DNA from: Sphingobium sp. KCTC 72723
GTDB taxonomy: Bacteria > Pseudomonadota > Alphaproteobacteria > Sphingomonadales > Sphingomonadaceae
Assembly (NCBI RefSeq): GCF_014280435.1
Contig: NZ_CP060388.1
Coordinates: forward strand, 3,299,501 to 3,363,500
DNA length: 64,000 nucleotides
Reading direction: 5' to 3'
The notes under the pieces are model-generated. The model was not told the DNA's origin. It saw nothing but the letters and a program-made list of their open reading frames with translations, and ran no database searches. Position numbers and translations under genes: made by a program. The stretch's first letter is position 1. Each line of letters starts with the position of its first letter. Shown here piece after piece: positions 42,476 through 49,455 of the stretch.

Positions 42476-42539
42476 GACAGCGACATGGACATAGAGTCAG
42501 CGATCAATCGACGCGCGAGTCTATGTCCATGTCGCTGTC
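42476..42539. terminator. 19-bp inverted repeat between convergent citE-like gene and speD
   Basis: GACAGCGACATGGACATAG at 42476-42494 is perfectly complementary to 42521-42539, with a 26-base loop. It follows the plus-strand lyase and includes the last codons and stop of speD. It may terminate both transcripts, although no T tract follows. Its arm is also a dispersed repeat (copies at 9084 and 19891). Confidence 0.5.
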
Positions 42540-42896
42540 TATTTCACCGCCGCGCAGGACCATGGTTTCGCGAATGCAATCGGGTGCCAGCCGGTTGTCC
42601 AGCACTGCCAGCGCGGCGGCGGGATCATGCCGTTCCCCGCACAGGAAAATGTCGATCGCGGCATAGCCATGTTCGGGCCAGGTGTGGATCGACATATGCG
42701 ATTCGGCGAGCAGAGCGATGCCCGTCACCCCGTGGCCCGGCCCGAAATGATGAAGGTGGACGCCAATGACGCTGGCCCCCGCCGCGACCGCCGCCGCGCG
42801 CAGGGCGTCCTCCACCAGCGCCAGATCATCCAGCACCGGGCAGCCATAAAGGTCGGCGAGCAGATGGCGGCCATCATAGGTGAAGGGCGGGGTCAT
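42504..42896 (-). CDS. speD: S-adenosylmethionine decarboxylase proenzyme, SpeD-like (130 aa)
   Basis: Short prokaryotic AdoMet decarboxylase that self-cleaves to a pyruvoyl enzyme. The cleavage site is Glu65-Ser66 in LLAESHMSIHTWPEHGYAAIDIFLCG; His71 and Cys86 match the processing and catalytic residues. It makes decarboxylated SAM, the aminopropyl donor. The last residues (DSDMDIDSRVD) are acidic and encoded by one arm of an inverted repeat, so they may be an acquired tail. It is the last gene of the polyamine/membrane operon; its start overlaps the stop of the FAD enzyme (ATGA). It would feed the spermidine-synthase-like protein two genes upstream. Confidence 0.93.
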   Translation of the reverse strand: MTPPFTYDGRHLLADLYGCPVLDDLALVEDALRAAAVAAGASVIGVHLHHFGPGHGVTGIALLAESHMSIHTWPEHGYAAIDIFLCGERHDPAAALAVLDNRLAPDCIRETMVLRGGEIDSDMDIDSRVD

Positions 42897-44476
42897 AACA
42901 GCGTCTCGAACGGGTGGTTGAGCAAGGCCAGCGCGCTTTCGGCGGCGGCCATGCCCTGATAATGGGCTTCCTCGAAAAGGGACAGGCCGCTCATGTCGCT
43001 ATGCGCGCGGAAGATGGGCGGTGTCGTCGCCGCGCGCATTGCCGGGGCCGTGGTCCAGATATAGCCGGGCGTCGGGCGGATCATCGCATGGCCCCATTTC
43101 CACAGGTCGATGGAACGGATCGCGCCATCAAGGTCGGGGTTGGTCGCCAGCAGATCGTCGCGCACGATTCCCCGCCATGCCGCATCGCTCCGCTCCACCA
43201 GCAGGCGGCGGGCGGTGACGGGCGGCAGGTCGGACAGGGGCAGATACCATGTCAGGACGGTCGGTCCCTGCCGCGATGCGCTTTGATGGGTGGCAACGAC
43301 ATAGCCCAGCGACGCGCTGCTGGCCGAAACATTGTCCCATGCCAGCGCTGCGCCCTTCCCGCCCGGCGCGCGATCGACGGTCACGTTGGCGACCAGCCAT
43401 GGGGCATAGCTATGATCCGCGCCGACCGCCTCACCCAGCAGGCGTCCGGCGATGAAGTGCGGCATGGCGAGGATCAGTGCCTTGGCATGAATGCGAACGC
43501 TGCGGTCGCGCGCCGTGTCGAACAGGTCGAGCGTCGCGCCGGATGGAGTGGCGGCGGCACGGAACGCGACCTGCCCCGTCGCGATCCGGTCGGGGAAGCG
43601 GGCGCGCATCTGGTCGGTCAGGCGGGCGTTTCCTTCGGGCCAGGTCAGTTCATTGTCGCCCCCTGCTGCGGCGAAGCCCCGGCGGCTGGCAAAATAATGG
43701 ATGCCCGCCCAGGCAGACACGGCATCCGGTTCCGTCCCATAATCGTCGCGGCAGGCATAGCGGACATGGGCGCGCAGCACGGGCGAGGTCCAGCCCTTGC
43801 CGTCCAGCCAGCGGGCGAAGCTGATCCTATCGAGCGCCAGCAGGTCGGCGTCGCGGGCGCTATAGGCGATGGGGATGGCGAAGGCGGGGCGGCCTGCTGC
43901 GTCGCGCCGCTTTGCATAGCCCGCCATTGCGGTGTCGAAGGCGGCAAGATCGGCCTTGTCCCTGGCCGACAGGCCCGTGCGCGGGACCAGTCCTTCCTGC
44001 CACCGCCCCTGCCACAGCAGCCGTTCGGGCATGTCGGCGCACAGTTGCAGCGGGTCGTAGACGGGCCGTCCTTCACGGTCGCCAGTAACGATGCCGAACT
44101 GGCGCAGCATATGGCGCAGGCCGCGCGCCTCCATATTGGGGACGGGCAGATAATGTGCGCCCAGCGGAAAGGCGGAGACGGCGTTGCGCCCGCTGCGCGC
44201 ATTGCCGCCGACGCTGGATTCCATTTCGATCAGGCGGAAGTCCCTGAACCCCGCTTCGGCCAGCCGCCAGCCAGCGGCAAGGCCCGCGACCCCGCCGCCC
44301 GCGATCAGCAGGGTGGTGTGCGCCTCCTCGCTCGGTTCGGGGAAGCCCCCGTCGCGCAACCGGTGGCCCAGCGCCATGTCCGCGCCGCCGCTGGTGCCGG
44401 GAGCGGCACGCGGGGCGCAGCCGCTGAGCGCCAGCGCTGCGCCTGCCTGCATCACCGTGCGCCGGTCAGCCTTCAT
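42893..44476 (-). CDS. Exported FAD-dependent oxidoreductase, amine-oxidase-like (527 aa)
   Basis: FAD enzyme with dinucleotide motif LLIAGGGVAGLAAGWRLAEAG followed by SSVGGNARSGRN, the layout of flavin amine oxidases and desaturases. The N-terminus ADRRTVMQAGAALALSGC has a twin-arginine-like segment and a lipobox, so it is probably exported folded and lipid-anchored. In this operon it sits between the SpeE-like and SpeD genes, overlapping both neighbours by a few bases. Oxidation of a polyamine or polyamine-modified compound at the membrane would fit, but is an inference. Confidence 0.85.
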   Translation of the reverse strand: MKADRRTVMQAGAALALSGCAPRAAPGTSGGADMALGHRLRDGGFPEPSEEAHTTLLIAGGGVAGLAAGWRLAEAGFRDFRLIEMESSVGGNARSGRNAVSAFPLGAHYLPVPNMEARGLRHMLRQFGIVTGDREGRPVYDPLQLCADMPERLLWQGRWQEGLVPRTGLSARDKADLAAFDTAMAGYAKRRDAAGRPAFAIPIAYSARDADLLALDRISFARWLDGKGWTSPVLRAHVRYACRDDYGTEPDAVSAWAGIHYFASRRGFAAAGGDNELTWPEGNARLTDQMRARFPDRIATGQVAFRAAATPSGATLDLFDTARDRSVRIHAKALILAMPHFIAGRLLGEAVGADHSYAPWLVANVTVDRAPGGKGAALAWDNVSASSASLGYVVATHQSASRQGPTVLTWYLPLSDLPPVTARRLLVERSDAAWRGIVRDDLLATNPDLDGAIRSIDLWKWGHAMIRPTPGYIWTTAPAMRAATTPPIFRAHSDMSGLSLFEEAHYQGMAAAESALALLNHPFETLL

Positions 44477-45995
44477 AGCGCGCCCATTCCTGCGCGAAGC
44501 TGCGGACCAGCGCCTGATTGTCCAGCCGGTTCACCGGCACCGGACGGCGGGCCATGTCCGGCGGGAATATCATCGCCTGCGCCGCCACGGCGGCCGACAG
44601 GAAGCGGTTGGTGGGCAGCAGCGCGACCTGCATCCCCGGATCGGTCTGCCCCGCCAATATGAAACCCCATTCGCCGAAACTCGGCACATAGGCATGATAG
44701 GGGCGGGTCTGGAACCCGGCAGCCTCCAGCGTCGTCGCCACGGTCCAGAAGGCAGCGGGGGCGACCAGCGGCGACGTGCTTTGCACCACCGCCACGCCGC
44801 CGGGGGCCAGGCGCGGGCGCAGCATCCGGTAGAAGCTTTCGGTATAGAGTTTGCCGACAGAAAAATCGACCGGATCGGGGAAATCCACGATGATGACGTC
44901 GAAGCGCGCCTGCGCCGTGCGTATCCAGCGGAAAGCATCGGCATTGACGATGTGCATCCGGCGATCCGTCAGTGCATTGCGGTTGAGCGTGGTCAGCAGC
45001 GCGGTGTGGCTGAACAGGCGCGTCATCGCGGGATCGAGATCGACGAGCGTGACGCTGCGCACGCCGGGGTGGCGGAACACTTCGCGCGCCGCCAGCCCAT
45101 CGCCGCCGCCCAGGATCAGGACGTTGCGGGGGTGGGCGACGCGGCCCATCGCCGGATGCACCAGCGCTTCATGATAGCGATATTCGTCGCGGGCGGAAAA
45201 TTGCAGATTGCCGTTCAGGTAGAGGCGGACATCGTCATCCTTGCGTGTGAGGACGAGCCGCTGATAGGGGCTGGAAGTGGCGTAGATCACCCGTTCGCCA
45301 TAGGCGGCGATTTCCGACCAGCGCTGGATGCGTTCGGCCATGACGAAGCCTGCGATCAGGCTGGCCGCGACCAGCAGCGCCGACACCTGTTCCCGCAGCA
45401 ACCGCGCTCGTCCCGGCAGCAGCATGAGCAACAACAGCGCGACACCGACATTGAGCAGGCCGAACATCAGTCCGGTGCGGATGAGGCCAAGATGCGGCAC
45501 CAGCAGCAGCGGAAAAAGCAGGGATGCCGCCAGCGCGCCGACATAGTCGAAGGTCAGTACGTTCGACACCGTCTCGTTAAAATCGAACCGATCGCGCAGG
45601 ATGCGCATCAGCAGCGGGATTTCGAGGCCGACGAGGAAGCCGATGACGAAGACGAGGCAGTAGAGGATCAGGCGGAATTGCTCCACCAGCGGGAACAGCA
45701 GAAACAGCCCCGCCGCCGACCAGCCCCCCAGCAGCGCGACGAGGATTTCCACCCGAATGAACAGGCGCAGTTCGTCCCGCTTCACATAGCGCGAACACCA
45801 GCTGCCCACCCCCATGGCGAACAGATAGGTGCCGATGACGGTCGAAAATTGGGTGACGCTGTCGCCCAGCAGATAGCTGGCGATGGTGCCGGCCAGCAGT
45901 TCGTAGATCAGCCCGCAGGTCGCAACTGCAAAGACGCTGGCAAGCAGCAGCGCGACCAGCGTGGAGCGTCCGGGCGCGCGGGGTTGTTCAGCCAT
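44466..45995 (-). CDS. Membrane-anchored spermidine-synthase-like protein (509 aa)
   Basis: N-terminal half (to about 215) has seven or so hydrophobic helices, starting ALLLASVFAVATCGLIYELLAG. The C-terminal half is a SpeE domain: SSPYQRLVLTRKD, YRYHEALVHPAMG, SAM motif LILGGGDGLAAREV, VTLVDLDPAM and DFPDPVDFSVGKLYT. It should move an aminopropyl group from decarboxylated SAM to an amine at the inner membrane. The start is ATG 45995, overlapping the DUF350 gene by 8 bp. It is not the usual soluble SpeE; coupling to SpeD suggests that this operon makes its own polyamine. Confidence 0.92.
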   Translation of the reverse strand: MAEQPRAPGRSTLVALLLASVFAVATCGLIYELLAGTIASYLLGDSVTQFSTVIGTYLFAMGVGSWCSRYVKRDELRLFIRVEILVALLGGWSAAGLFLLFPLVEQFRLILYCLVFVIGFLVGLEIPLLMRILRDRFDFNETVSNVLTFDYVGALAASLLFPLLLVPHLGLIRTGLMFGLLNVGVALLLLMLLPGRARLLREQVSALLVAASLIAGFVMAERIQRWSEIAAYGERVIYATSSPYQRLVLTRKDDDVRLYLNGNLQFSARDEYRYHEALVHPAMGRVAHPRNVLILGGGDGLAAREVFRHPGVRSVTLVDLDPAMTRLFSHTALLTTLNRNALTDRRMHIVNADAFRWIRTAQARFDVIIVDFPDPVDFSVGKLYTESFYRMLRPRLAPGGVAVVQSTSPLVAPAAFWTVATTLEAAGFQTRPYHAYVPSFGEWGFILAGQTDPGMQVALLPTNRFLSAAVAAQAMIFPPDMARRPVPVNRLDNQALVRSFAQEWARYEG

Positions 45996-46200
45996 GAATG
46001 GCGGCGGCAACGACGATGGCCAGGCCAATGGCGATGGCGCCTGCAAATTGCGCGACGGCCAGGTTCTGCTTGTCGCGAATTTCCTCCCACAGCTTGCCGG
46101 GTGTCAGCAGGTCGAGGATGACGAAGCCCAGAACGAAAACGACAATGCCGACCCCGGCATAGAGCAGGCTGTTGAGCAGCACGGACAGATTGACGAGCAT
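45988..46200 (-). CDS. DUF350 small membrane protein (70 aa)
   Basis: Two hydrophobic helices, NSLLYAGVGIVVFVLGFVILDLL and a C-terminal AQFAGAIAIGLAIVVAAAI, separated by TPGKLWEEIRDKQNLAV, which matches single-repeat DUF350 (YjfL-like) proteins. ATG 46200 has GGAGA upstream. It lies between the 48-residue membrane protein and the SpeE-like gene. DUF350 proteins recur in clusters with polyamine or peptide-ligase genes; their molecular role is not established. Confidence 0.88.
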   Translation of the reverse strand: MLVNLSVLLNSLLYAGVGIVVFVLGFVILDLLTPGKLWEEIRDKQNLAVAQFAGAIAIGLAIVVAAAIHG

Positions 46201-46210
46201 CTTGCGTCTC

Positions 46211-46357
46211 CTATTTATGAGTGGGGCCGTAGGCCCGGCCAATGAGCGTGGACCGGCCGCCATCGGCGAAAGGGGAATAGCCCTGCGACGTGCTGGCCAG
46301 GAACAGGCCGACAACGATCAGGCACCAGAGGGCGTAGAGGAAGCTACTGCGGCTCAT
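46211..46357 (-). CDS. 48-residue single-helix membrane protein
   Basis: Short gene from ATG 46357 to stop 46211. Its start overlaps the stop of the DUF4178 gene (ATGA) and it ends ten bases before DUF350, so coupling supports that it is real. It has one hydrophobic helix (SSFLYALWCLIVVGLFLAST) and a short polar tail with SPFADGG. No family recognised. Possible small subunit of the membrane complex encoded by this operon. Confidence 0.65.
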   Translation of the reverse strand: MSRSSFLYALWCLIVVGLFLASTSQGYSPFADGGRSTLIGRAYGPTHK

Positions 46358-47697
46358 GGCGTGGCAAAGCCCCTGATCCAGTCCCCGGCATCCGGGTCCG
46401 CGCCGTCCTTTTGCGCCAGGCGGGCATTTTCGAACAGGCTGTGCAGGATCAGCATCAATATGGGCGGCACCAGCACCAGCAGCACGGCAAGCCACAGGTT
46501 GGAGGCAAAGCGTGCGCCGCGTGCGACCCGGATCATAACGTCCACGGGCGGCTGGCCGGTGGACTGATACTGGCCGGTCTGGGCGTTCCAGTCGAAATTG
46601 CCCGCACTGCCCCAATGATGCGCCTGCGCGTCGACCACCAGATCATAGCTGCCCGCTGGCAGACTGGCGATCTTGAGCGTCTGGCCGCGCGATCCTTCGG
46701 TCCAGTTGCCGTCGCCATCATTGCCGGAATAGCGTTCGTTGAGCGCATAGGCTTCATAGCTGTCCTGCGTCGCCCGGTTGACCAATGCGACGTCGATATC
46801 GACCCAGCCCTGTTCGATATTGGACGTGCGGGTTTCGATCGTCACCCCCTGACGCGGGGCGGGCAGGATGATGGGACCGAAAGTCTGCGAAACTTCGGGG
46901 CCATCGGGCGTGACAGGGAAGCCGAACGTCTGCGGCTGAAACGTCCGCCCGAACAGGAGGAACAGGGCGATCAGCACGGCGAAGGTGACGAGGCCGACCG
47001 GCAGCCAGCCCCTGACCCGGTGGGCGAAGGGCGATGGCTGATGCGCGAGCGGAGTGATGCCGGGCAGCCAGCGTGGCGGGGGCGGCAGGTCGAAGGCGGC
47101 GCGGATTTCGCGCGCGGTCAGAAATTCGCTCACCGTCCAGCTTTTTTCGCGGTCGTCCTGCTCCAGGCTGAGCATGAAGCCGGGGCGGACATAGTCGCTG
47201 GTCCGCACCGTTTCGCCGACCTTGACCCGCCAGTAAAATTCGCCCGCAACCCGCTGCACACGGGCTTCATTATGGTGGTAGAAGGCCGTGAAGCGGCGCC
47301 CGTCCACCACATAGTCGCCGCCGTCATAGCCGGGTGCCGCAGTCAGCATGGTGCCAAGGCTCCACTGGCCGTTTTGTGCGATCAGCCAGCAATAACCCTC
47401 GAACGGGTTGAACAGCAGATATTCGTCCCACTCCGCCCAGCCGTCCGACCGCTGCATCCATCCGATCACGTCCCATTCCACCCCGCGCAGCGTGCCGCGC
47501 GTGCCGAGCGGGATGGCGAGCGATGCCTGTGTTTCATTGTAGCGGGTGATGATCTGAACATCGGGATGGGCGACGTCGATCAGCGATGCGCAATATTCGC
47601 AGGCGATGGTGACGCTCAGCCCCGCCGCGCGAAGGCCAAGCGTCCCGCCACAGGCCGGGCAGGCCAGCGTCCGGGTGGTCGCGGCGTCAGCGGGCAT
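46354..47697 (-). CDS. DUF4178 membrane protein with zinc ribbon (447 aa)
   Basis: N-terminal zinc ribbon (LACPACGG and CEYCASLID), then a DUF4178 domain at about 65-200 with GTLRGVEWDVIGWMQRSDGWAEWDEYLLFN... continuing FEGYCWL. A hydrophobic helix is at about 235-252 (LVTFAVLIALFLLFG). A region of about 150 residues, probably periplasmic, contains NERYSGNDGDGNWTEGS, and a second helix follows (WLAVLLVLVPPILMLIL). It overlaps the shorter DUF4178 gene by 11 bp. The function is unknown; zinc-ribbon DUF4178 proteins cluster with SPFH proteins. Confidence 0.88.
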   Translation of the reverse strand: MPADAATTRTLACPACGGTLGLRAAGLSVTIACEYCASLIDVAHPDVQIITRYNETQASLAIPLGTRGTLRGVEWDVIGWMQRSDGWAEWDEYLLFNPFEGYCWLIAQNGQWSLGTMLTAAPGYDGGDYVVDGRRFTAFYHHNEARVQRVAGEFYWRVKVGETVRTSDYVRPGFMLSLEQDDREKSWTVSEFLTAREIRAAFDLPPPPRWLPGITPLAHQPSPFAHRVRGWLPVGLVTFAVLIALFLLFGRTFQPQTFGFPVTPDGPEVSQTFGPIILPAPRQGVTIETRTSNIEQGWVDIDVALVNRATQDSYEAYALNERYSGNDGDGNWTEGSRGQTLKIASLPAGSYDLVVDAQAHHWGSAGNFDWNAQTGQYQSTGQPPVDVMIRVARGARFASNLWLAVLLVLVPPILMLILHSLFENARLAQKDGADPDAGDWIRGFATP

Positions 47698-48358
47698 AGG
47701 AGGGCATGGTCCAGCCGGGGAGCGGGCGCAGATTGCGGGGGTGCAGGTCGGCCAGCGTTACATATTCGCCGACATAAAGGGCGTGGTCGCGGCTGTCCTT
47801 CTGAAAGGAGGCGCAGCGGCCATCGGCCTTGCGGAAATCGACGCTGAGCGCCTGCCACCCGGTCGGTGCGGAAAAGGGCAATTCCCCCTCCCCCGCCACG
47901 CAGGTGACGGTGCGGATGTCGGCGACCTGATAATCATGGGCGGCGATGGTGGCTGTTTCACCCGGTAGCACGGTTTCCCCGTCGATCAGGCGGCGCAGGA
48001 CTTTGGCCATCGGCGCCTTGATGGCCATTTCGCGCATCGCCATATATTGCCCCATGGCTTCGCCGAGCCAGCCATGGCTGCCATCCGCCATCAGCATCAA
48101 CCATTCATTCCATGCGCCATCGTCCCGGCTCCAGCGGACGCGGCCGATAATGTCGAAGCCCTGCCCCTGCCATTGCCCCTGCGTGCCGATCTGCACCGGG
48201 CTGACGTCGAAAGGCAGGTCGGCGATCATGCCCATCGCCTGCGCGCTGGCGTTGTAGCGCACGACGAGCGTGCGGCATTGGTCGCACACCCTGACCGGCA
48301 AGGCAGGCGAGCGGAACGCGACATCCGCGCCGCAACTGGGGCAGGCAAAATTATGCAT
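47687..48358 (-). CDS. DUF4178 protein with zinc ribbon (223 aa)
   Basis: Soluble companion of the previous gene. N-terminal CPSCGADV and CDQCRTLVV form a zinc ribbon; the DUF4178 domain follows, with QWQGQGFDIIGRVRWSRDDGAWNEW and SHGWLGEAMGQYM. No membrane helix. It lies five bases after the SPFH gene and overlaps the larger DUF4178 gene. Probably an adaptor in the same membrane-associated assembly; biochemical role unknown. Confidence 0.87.
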   Translation of the reverse strand: MHNFACPSCGADVAFRSPALPVRVCDQCRTLVVRYNASAQAMGMIADLPFDVSPVQIGTQGQWQGQGFDIIGRVRWSRDDGAWNEWLMLMADGSHGWLGEAMGQYMAMREMAIKAPMAKVLRRLIDGETVLPGETATIAAHDYQVADIRTVTCVAGEGELPFSAPTGWQALSVDFRKADGRCASFQKDSRDHALYVGEYVTLADLHPRNLRPLPGWTMPSYAR

Positions 48359-48363
48359 GGGAT

Positions 48364-49344
48364 TTAGCGGATGCGACCCAGCAATTCGGCTTTCTTGGTG
48401 TCGAACTCGGCCTGGGTCAGCGCGCCCATTTCCAGCAGCTTGTGCAGTTTTTCGATGAGAGCGAAGGGGTCTTCCGCTGGCGCGGCGGGCGTGCTGCCAA
48501 GCGCGCCGGTCATCGCCTGACCGATCGCCAGTCCCGCCGCTGCGCCCGCGCCGATCGCGGCGGTGCCGCCCGACTGGCCTGCGGCGATCTCGATCGCTTC
48601 GGCGGCCTGGAATTTGGCATAGCGGTCGAGGTCACCCAGCACGCGCATGGAACTGGCCTTGTCGAGATGCTTCTGCACCTCTTCGGGCAGCGACAGGCTT
48701 TCGACGAAGAAGGTTTCGAGCGACAGACCCCACAGGGCAAAGGCGGGCGCGAGGGCGGCCCTGAGCGCTTCGGACAGCGCCGTCTGGCTGGCGGCAAGGT
48801 CGAGGAAGGGCGTGCCGCCACCTGCAACGCCCGTGGCAAGGCCGGTCTGGATCGCGGCGCGCAGTTGCGGCTCGATGTCGGCGACGCGCACTTCCCCCAG
48901 CGTCCCCATGATGCGCGCGGCGAAGGGCGCGACGTCGCGGATGCGGAAGGAATAGCTGCCGAAGGCGCGGACACGCAGTGGCCCAAGTTCGGGGTCGCGC
49001 AGCGTGATCGGCTGGGCTGTCCCCCATTTCAAGCCGATCTGTTCCTTTTCGGAAAAGAAGCAGACATCGGATTTGAAGGGCGATTTGAACCCCTTGTCCC
49101 AATGTTCCAGTGCCGTGAGCAGCGGCAGGGTGGACGTGTCGAGCCTGTGCAGGCCCGGCCCGAACATGTCGGCGATGCGCCCTTCGTTGAAGAAGGCGGC
49201 GATTTGCCCTTCGCGCACGGTCAGTTGCGCGCCGTTCTGAATTTCCCGATCCGCCATCGGCACCCGCCATCCCAGTTGGCCCGGTTCCTCGACCCAATCG
49301 ATAATGTCGACAAATTGTTTCGACAGAAAATCCAATATGCCCAT
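48364..49344 (-). CDS. SPFH-domain protein with C-terminal SHOCT (326 aa)
   Basis: Virion-core/YdjI-like SPFH protein. It begins GILDFLSKQFVDIIDWVEEP, has VREGQIAAFFNEGRIADMFGPG and GSYSFRIRDV, then a helical part ending in a glycine/alanine-rich stretch. The last about 35 residues are a SHOCT motif (DPFALIEKLHKLLEMGALTQ). The start is ATG 49344 with AGGGGA upstream. SPFH proteins form oligomers at membranes; SHOCT helps oligomerisation. It is the first gene of the polyamine/DUF4178/DUF350 operon and may scaffold it. Confidence 0.9.
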   Translation of the reverse strand: MGILDFLSKQFVDIIDWVEEPGQLGWRVPMADREIQNGAQLTVREGQIAAFFNEGRIADMFGPGLHRLDTSTLPLLTALEHWDKGFKSPFKSDVCFFSEKEQIGLKWGTAQPITLRDPELGPLRVRAFGSYSFRIRDVAPFAARIMGTLGEVRVADIEPQLRAAIQTGLATGVAGGGTPFLDLAASQTALSEALRAALAPAFALWGLSLETFFVESLSLPEEVQKHLDKASSMRVLGDLDRYAKFQAAEAIEIAAGQSGGTAAIGAGAAAGLAIGQAMTGALGSTPAAPAEDPFALIEKLHKLLEMGALTQAEFDTKKAELLGRIR

Positions 49345-49455
49345 GCGCGTTCCCCTGACCGTGCGCCATTTTAGAAGAGCGGAACGGGGCGACAAGCGAA
49401 AATGCGCCCCCGTGAAAATCACATTAAACACCGGTACTATTGGCAACGCATGGGC

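Follow-up and report, generated by a model that had tools for sequence, protein, structure and literature searches.

Two gene clusters of Escherichia coli K-12, yjfIJKLMC and ygiBC, place a Gly/Ser-rich membrane or exported protein (YjfM or YgiB) with a polyamine-using enzyme. In RefSeq the enzymes of these clusters (L182:8388-10192 and L183:3745-5582), YjfC and YgiC, are named 'peptide--spermidine ligase', and we take them to be ATP-grasp proteins; the proteins encoded next to them, YjfM and YgiB, have the C-termini HWGG and SMGG, and the yjf cluster adds a DUF350 protein and PspA. Here we analyse a window of 64,000 nucleotides from Sphingobium sp. KCTC 72723 (contig NZ_CP060388.1, positions 3,299,501 to 3,363,500), which holds an eight-gene operon comparable to these clusters: like yjf, it combines a DUF350 protein and an SPFH/PspA-type protein with a membrane tail protein. 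The E. coli tails end in Gly-Gly, whereas those of the operon and its relatives end in lysine, and the place of the RefSeq-named ligase is taken by an aminopropyltransferase. No YjfC/YgiC-type ligase is found among the eight assigned open reading frames (ORFs) of the operon, whose own tail ends in THK. We propose that the operon encodes a membrane machine that would modify a small membrane-anchored peptide at its C-terminal tail, a reading whose chances of being right or wrong seem to us evenly balanced.

Three other described systems share some of these parts. The Bacillus subtilis ydjFGHI-type clusters presumably combine SPFH and zinc-ribbon proteins with PspA and lack polyamine enzymes. Pseudomonas aeruginosa PA4773-PA4775 presumably includes speD- and speE-like genes dedicated to the envelope, and we know of no lysine-tailed peptide there. 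The PRK03612 group and the fused spermidine synthases of the major facilitator superfamily type (NF002956, NF037959) include the window's SpeE, which matches NF002956, as do all 67 other members of our SpeE alignment (A3); the family is named polyamine aminopropyltransferase, with no protein-tail acceptor. DUF4178 and DUF350 are both 'domain of unknown function' by Pfam name.

The operon lies at 42504-49344 of the window on the minus strand, and its neighbouring genes overlap by 4-11 base pairs (bp) or are spaced 5 and 10 bp apart. Listed in the order found in sphingomonads, with lengths in amino acids (aa), the genes are:

48364..49344, minus strand: SPFH protein (Band_7_1) with a C-terminal SHOCT domain, 326 aa (PF13421, 232.9 bits; PF09851, 30.6 bits)
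47687..48358, minus strand: short zinc-ribbon DUF4178 protein, 223 aa (PF13785, 43.2 bits, cut-off 25)
46354..47697, minus strand: long zinc-ribbon DUF4178 protein with two hydrophobic segments, 447 aa (PF13785, 64.9 bits, cut-off 25)
46211..46357, minus strand (46214-46357 plus stop): single-segment membrane peptide, 48 aa, ending ...YGPTHK (below every family cut-off)
45988..46200, minus strand: half-size DUF350 membrane protein, 70 aa (PF03994, 59.1 bits, cut-off 26, model positions 4-66 of 133)
44466..45995, minus strand: membrane aminopropyltransferase SpeE, PRK03612 family, 509 aa (NF002956, 668.1 bits, cut-off 472)
42893..44476, minus strand: oxidoreductase binding flavin adenine dinucleotide (FAD), with a signal of the twin-arginine translocation (Tat) type, 527 aa (NAD_binding_8, 43.3 bits; weak Amino_oxidase, 27.9 bits)
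42504..42896, minus strand: S-adenosylmethionine decarboxylase (AdoMetDC) proenzyme SpeD, 130 aa (TIGR03330, 121.2 bits, cut-off 75.65)

An earlier annotation made from the letters of this DNA alone, hereafter the sequence-only reading, had described these genes, their order and their families, all of which we find again; the spacing it gave, at most about 10 bp, holds for the two gaps, and the overlaps reach 11 bp. The likeness it saw to the E. coli yjf cluster also stands, with DUF350, an SPFH or PspA protein, a membrane tail protein and a polyamine enzyme in common.

The same eight genes occur in the same order in six relatives of the genus and on one Novosphingobium plasmid. The module is also present in Pseudomonadota, Bacteroidota (order SpeD, DUF4178, peptide, DUF350, SpeE, FAD protein), Verrucomicrobiota (DUF4178, peptide, DUF350, SpeE, FAD protein, SpeD), Gemmatimonadota and others. 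A lack of co-conservation had been named beforehand as one of two findings that would refute the sequence-only reading, and our survey did not bear it out; because the genes recur in other genera and phyla, the arrangement is not one of chance. To count the parts, we scanned GTDB genomes with the SpeE alignment, which matched at least 594 stretches, 585 of these being relatives; the best 80 stretches and 12 other loci form a first set of 92 loci. In iterated profile searches, 86 of the 92 loci have a DUF4178-like protein and 87 the FAD protein, for which a few matches are weak or partial and 81 of the 86 DUF4178-bearing loci reach at least 100 bits; DUF350 was found in 81, SpeD in 79 (two of these being comparison loci) and SPFH relatives in 43. 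The Pfam DUF4178 model gave no match to the one Bacteroidota DUF4178-like protein tried (L071), and in that phylum we use the label because of the iterated profile and the gene's position. Outside the 86 lie two comparison loci found through SpeD beyond the module (L126, L127), two loci broken off at a contig start (L091, L119) and two without DUF4178 (L078, L122). Besides DUF4178, these last two also lack DUF350 and the tail; their SpeE and flavin genes lie next to what by eye are recA (L078) and a transposase-like ORF (L122). At L080:6458-9931, from Solitalea agri, the DUF4178-like/DUF350 pair is present in a tandem copy. An actinobacterial control genome, Corynebacterium glutamicum, matched DUF4178, DUF350 and Spermine_synth and gave no match to SpeD.

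Since the first set is biased towards close relatives of SpeE, a second was chosen by DUF4178 alone. Among 398 Pseudomonadota genomes, 26 match DUF4178, namely the window's own and a further 25, in which we read the genes around DUF4178. The module is present in 24 of the 25; the remaining genome, G229 (L172), has an isolated DUF4178 and is not counted in the 24, and at L174 SpeE is not present in the stretch read. The sets probably overlap by at least one genome, as L158 (genome G283) of the second and L049 of the first lie on contigs of equal length, have an identical peptide and are probably one genome, and many loci stem from a few large clades, so that all counts overstate the number of independent events.

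Between the DUF4178 gene and that for DUF350 (or SpeE) sits a short peptide, mostly of 45-90 aa, with one hydrophobic segment. In the window this 48-aa protein matches no Pfam or NCBIfam family over cut-off, and the single annotated record examined calls it a 'hypothetical protein'. Its C-terminal residue is lysine in 86/86 DUF4178-bearing loci of the first set, six of them loci where DUF350 was not found. The last two residues are His-Lys (HK) in 83 of the 86, the other three ending in GK (L018, L069) and VK (L019). A mechanical rule recovered the peptide in 80/80 loci, with HK in 75; at L099 and L103 the rule erred and the ORFs really end in HK, and the HK tail of L116 was added by reading. 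The 92 loci together span 1.62 Mb and contain 1802 small hydrophobic ORFs, 86 of which end in HK. Eighty-one of these, spread over 80 loci, lie a short way 5' of SpeE and two more, at L059 and L020, are operon peptides beyond the distance rule; elsewhere the ending is rare (3/1719 other small hydrophobic ORFs). An alignment of 61 HK-ended peptides (A7) has no further invariant column, the two HK columns being invariant by selection since the peptides were chosen for that end. Histidine is encoded by CAC and CAT, lysine by AAA and AAG, and each of the three stop codons occurs, so the constraint acts on the protein. We also asked whether HK might simply arise from the ribosome-binding site of DUF350. 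This was ruled out, as codons and stops vary, HK occurs at loci where a DUF350 gene was not found downstream of it (L020, L116, L177, L179) and HK closes DUF4178 fusions.

These fusions come from the second set, in which a lysine-ended tail is found in 24/24 module genomes. Thirteen have HK: in five the peptide is separate (L157, L158, L177-L179), and in eight the long DUF4178 protein itself carries the tail, joined to its C-terminus past the membrane segment (L170, L171, L173-L176, L180, L181). The fusions occur in some betaproteobacterial relatives, one branch. Five tails end in GRIK or GRVK (L159-L163), four in GGK (L164, L166-L168), and two longer proteins directly 5' of DUF350 end in RGK and SGK (L165, L169). 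Any single non-HK tail weighs less, those of L165 and L169 least of all, because they were chosen by reading once lysine was suspected. The GGK ends look as if a lysine had been appended to an E. coli-like GG, and at one of these loci (L164) a neighbouring ORF is PspA-like by eye. L165 shares DUF350, PspA and DUF2170 with yjf and differs from it in having SpeE and an RGK tail.

The penultimate histidine goes with the flavin enzyme. With tail labels assigned by hand, 80 first-set loci have both the FAD protein and HK, one has the FAD protein with GK (L018), three have HK without it and two have neither (L019, L069), a rate of HK of 80/81 with the enzyme and 3/5 without. In the second set, the FAD alignment, searched against whole genomes, found the enzyme in 12/25, and the tail is HK in 12/12 of these; without the enzyme, HK closes the tail in 1/12 module genomes, the other 11 having a different penultimate residue. 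The exception is G134 (L170), where SpeE lies 837 bases from the contig start and the flavin gene may therefore have been lost to assembly. Fisher's test gives ~1e-5 with kinship ignored; counted by family, the association is 5/5 against 1/6. Where a genome had more than 57 candidates, 57 were scored; this applies to five genomes of family f19 without the enzyme, whose operon stretches also have no flavin gene. What the sequences show directly is which genes make up the set, that the tail ends in lysine, that this end co-occurs with the enzymes and that it can be fused to DUF4178. The sequence-only reading had passed over the 48-aa peptide as incidental; the lysine end, the co-occurrence of histidine with the flavin enzyme and the fusion suggest instead that the tail is the operative part.

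The predicted structure of the FAD protein (predicted local distance difference test score, pLDDT, 89.3) matches the flavin amine oxidase superfamily over its whole length, with monoamine oxidase A, protoporphyrinogen oxidase, spermidine dehydrogenase and putrescine oxidase at a template modelling (TM) score of about 0.6. From context and modelled fold, its substrate is likely an amine. An RRx-hydrophobic motif, typical of Tat substrates, lies within the first 40 residues of 66/79 relatives, in agreement with the export predicted by the sequence-only reading. Lipoprotein nature as a trait of the family was dropped; only 20/84 satisfy a rough rule, and we therefore claim the Tat-type motif alone. 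Directly 3' of the flavin gene, 33 loci (Bacteroidota, Obscuribacter, others) encode a polytopic membrane protein, mostly of ~350-395 aa with His-containing motifs (e.g. L071:13129-14193, L114:13052-14170); the two members compared with Pfam and NCBIfam models gave no match.

A conserved end need not be a substrate. The HK or K end could stay unmodified and serve as a docking, retention or metal-binding signal, the peptide being a small regulatory subunit that holds SpeE and the flavin enzyme. Conserved short C-termini are often binding signals, many of the tails are rich in His and Gly, and small membrane proteins often regulate larger ones. A binding signal, however, need not be lysine in all branches, with a penultimate residue that tracks an enzyme of amine-oxidase fold, and we regard this explanation as unlikely, if the best of the alternatives. 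On our preferred reading, a module that pairs an aminopropyltransferase with a terminal lysine open to it, and the histidine before that lysine with an enzyme of amine-oxidase fold, would most simply be a tail-modifying machine.

The SpeE model (63 sequences, pLDDT 88.6) has seven long helices followed by an aminopropyltransferase domain, so that the 'membrane-anchored' enzyme of the sequence-only reading is indeed membrane-bound, its anchor now refined to seven predicted helices. The catalytic domain matches solved aminopropyltransferases, and Q244, D298, D320, D352, D370 and D373 (numbering without Met) are invariant in the 63 sequences and align with the solved enzymes; we take them to be residues of the site for decarboxylated S-adenosylmethionine (dcSAM) and catalytic acidic residues. 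Since the nearest solved relatives use free polyamines, SpeE might instead make a free polyamine at the membrane that the flavin enzyme oxidises outside, with the peptide, SPFH, DUF4178 and DUF350 proteins as mere scaffold. That the fold of the flavin enzyme also matches spermidine dehydrogenase and putrescine oxidase would fit this scheme; the scheme leaves unexplained the lysine end, the DUF4178 fusion and the association of HK with the flavin enzyme, and we think it rather improbable. It is the version of the sequence-only reading, which assumed a free amine as acceptor; in its place we now favour, from sequence, the terminal lysine of the tail. As a whole, that reading is partly supported.

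SpeD is a likely source of dcSAM, as had been suggested: it matches TIGR03330 over cut-off, and its processing region, with the self-processing serine, is near-identical to that of Thermotoga maritima AdoMetDC (ESHMSIHTWPE...CGE vs ESHLTIHTWPE...CGE). It is the sole SpeD found in its genome, which has one further, weak Spermine_synth match. Among 37 genomes of the same genus, DUF4178 is found in seven and SpeD in the same seven only, while a relative of carboxynorspermidine decarboxylase occurs in 36/37 (361-398 bits, under the 409 cut-off; the exception, G013, is in ~220 contigs). In the window's genome this relative lies in a cluster (G000:C1:778000-782000; L123:3072-6907), between a pyridoxal phosphate (PLP) decarboxylase and a relative of carboxynorspermidine synthase (442 bits, cut-off 800). 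Judged by family scores, spermidine in the genus thus probably comes from the carboxyspermidine route, and the operon's SpeD and SpeE look dedicated, serving something other than general spermidine supply, because SpeD is present in 7/37 genomes and the decarboxylase relative in 36/37. In the second set SpeD occurs in 23/25 genomes, that is 23/24 module genomes, and was not found in G097, which has the module, or in G229.

Ordinary or spare spermidine synthesis with hitch-hiking neighbours, an idea that draws on the membership of SpeD and SpeE in the AdoMetDC and polyamine aminopropyltransferase families, is disfavoured by this genus survey, by the carboxynorspermidine-type cluster in the same genome and by neighbours co-conserved across phyla, and we consider it highly improbable. 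Slimmer still are the chances that the SpeD relative is an ornithine or arginine decarboxylase, as SpeD homologues have reportedly become, and that the SpeE-like protein uses another donor: G097 would suit such a change, yet the segment ESHMSIHTWPEHGYAAIDIFLCGE resembles T. maritima AdoMetDC, for which reason a changed SpeD is not favoured, and SpeE retains the acidic residues of aminopropyltransferases.

The tail-modifying machine that we favour would work outside the cytoplasm. With loop limits set by us, SpeE has a mean of 10.9 Lys plus Arg residues on the side of the N-terminus and loops 2-3, 4-5 and 6-7, and of 3.3 on the opposite side; the difference has the same sign in 89/89 sequences, all of which have a hydrophobic seventh helix. 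By the positive-inside rule, this charge pattern predicts the catalytic domain to lie outside the cytoplasm. In the tail peptides, net positive charge is greater before the helix than after it in 59/78, smaller in 7 and equal in 12. Together with the Tat-type motif, three predictions agree in placing the SpeE domain, the tail end and the flavin enzyme outside. Cysteine content was tried as further evidence of topology and, being weak, set aside.

The chemistry, step order, membrane side and scaffold role that we infer are as follows. SpeD would make dcSAM, from which the seven-helix SpeE would transfer the aminopropyl group to the tail's terminal lysine, at its side-chain amine. That side chain is a butylamine and so equals one half of putrescine, which aminopropyltransferases usually take as acceptor. 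In the flavin-enzyme branch, with His-Lys tails, the exported flavoprotein would then act on the modified tail. DUF4178, DUF350 and the SPFH protein (PspA in another branch) may keep tail and enzymes together at the membrane.

Several points weigh against this scheme. Its weakest is dcSAM, a cytoplasmic metabolite that must cross the membrane if the SpeE domain lies outside, and we know of no dcSAM carrier. For the flavin enzyme, protoporphyrinogen oxidase ranks second among the fold matches, and a PDB profile search matches essentially the FAD-binding part alone. Amine oxidases commonly have a conserved lysine near the flavin, and among 50 flavin-enzyme sequences no invariant or nearly invariant column holds a lysine, a statement about alignment columns and not about positions mapped onto a solved enzyme. 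The pairing of histidine and enzyme is also imperfect, with HK but no full flavin gene in the available stretches of L051, L070 and L111, and a flavin gene with a GK tail at L018; L051, L070 and L019 have little downstream sequence. The module genome G097, where SpeD was not found, and the recognition of some second-set tails by reading with the hypothesis already in mind count on the same side, and the tail modification itself is still a proposal from sequence.

A broader version, which we offer as doubtful though worth stating, is that aminopropylation, perhaps repeated in a silaffin-like manner, of the terminal lysine of membrane tails outside the cytoplasm is widespread. The seven-helix part of SpeE would pass dcSAM, and in one branch a flavin enzyme would oxidise His-Lys to a reactive or cross-linked group. 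Grouped with the E. coli Gly-Gly/spermidine-ligase clusters, these systems might constitute one class, membrane tails capped by polyamines, with DUF350 and SPFH/PspA proteins at its core. DUF4178 and DUF350 accompany the membrane SpeE family across phyla, and the lysine tail gives this module a concrete candidate substrate. If true, this would add a protein modification, polyamine chemistry would reach protein tails of the bacterial envelope, and SPFH and PspA membrane proteins would gain a partner open to study.

The operon is flanked on the opposite strand by genes of the enoyl-CoA hydratase, HpcH/HpaI-type lyase, aldehyde dehydrogenase and carboxymuconolactone-decarboxylase families, which look unrelated to it. 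A blastn comparison of the two flanks (5.5 and 5.4 kb) with eight loci that have short flanks of their own gave no match. PADLOC defence models gave weak partial matches alone (mad2, 55 bits over 127 SpeE residues; C3a186, 14 bits to the FAD protein), and an anti-phage defence system is thus unsupported. The interval 49345-49430 of the window, 5' of the SPFH gene, contains a CTTGTCCCG ... TCTAAACT-like pair, present with changes in eight Sphingobium or genus loci too, that is possibly a promoter. Elsewhere in the genome, a second, full-length DUF350 protein of 140 aa (G000:C1:2378342-2378725, L125) is encoded near a relative of cyclopropane-fatty-acid synthase, a molybdopterin oxidoreductase and a cytochrome b561.

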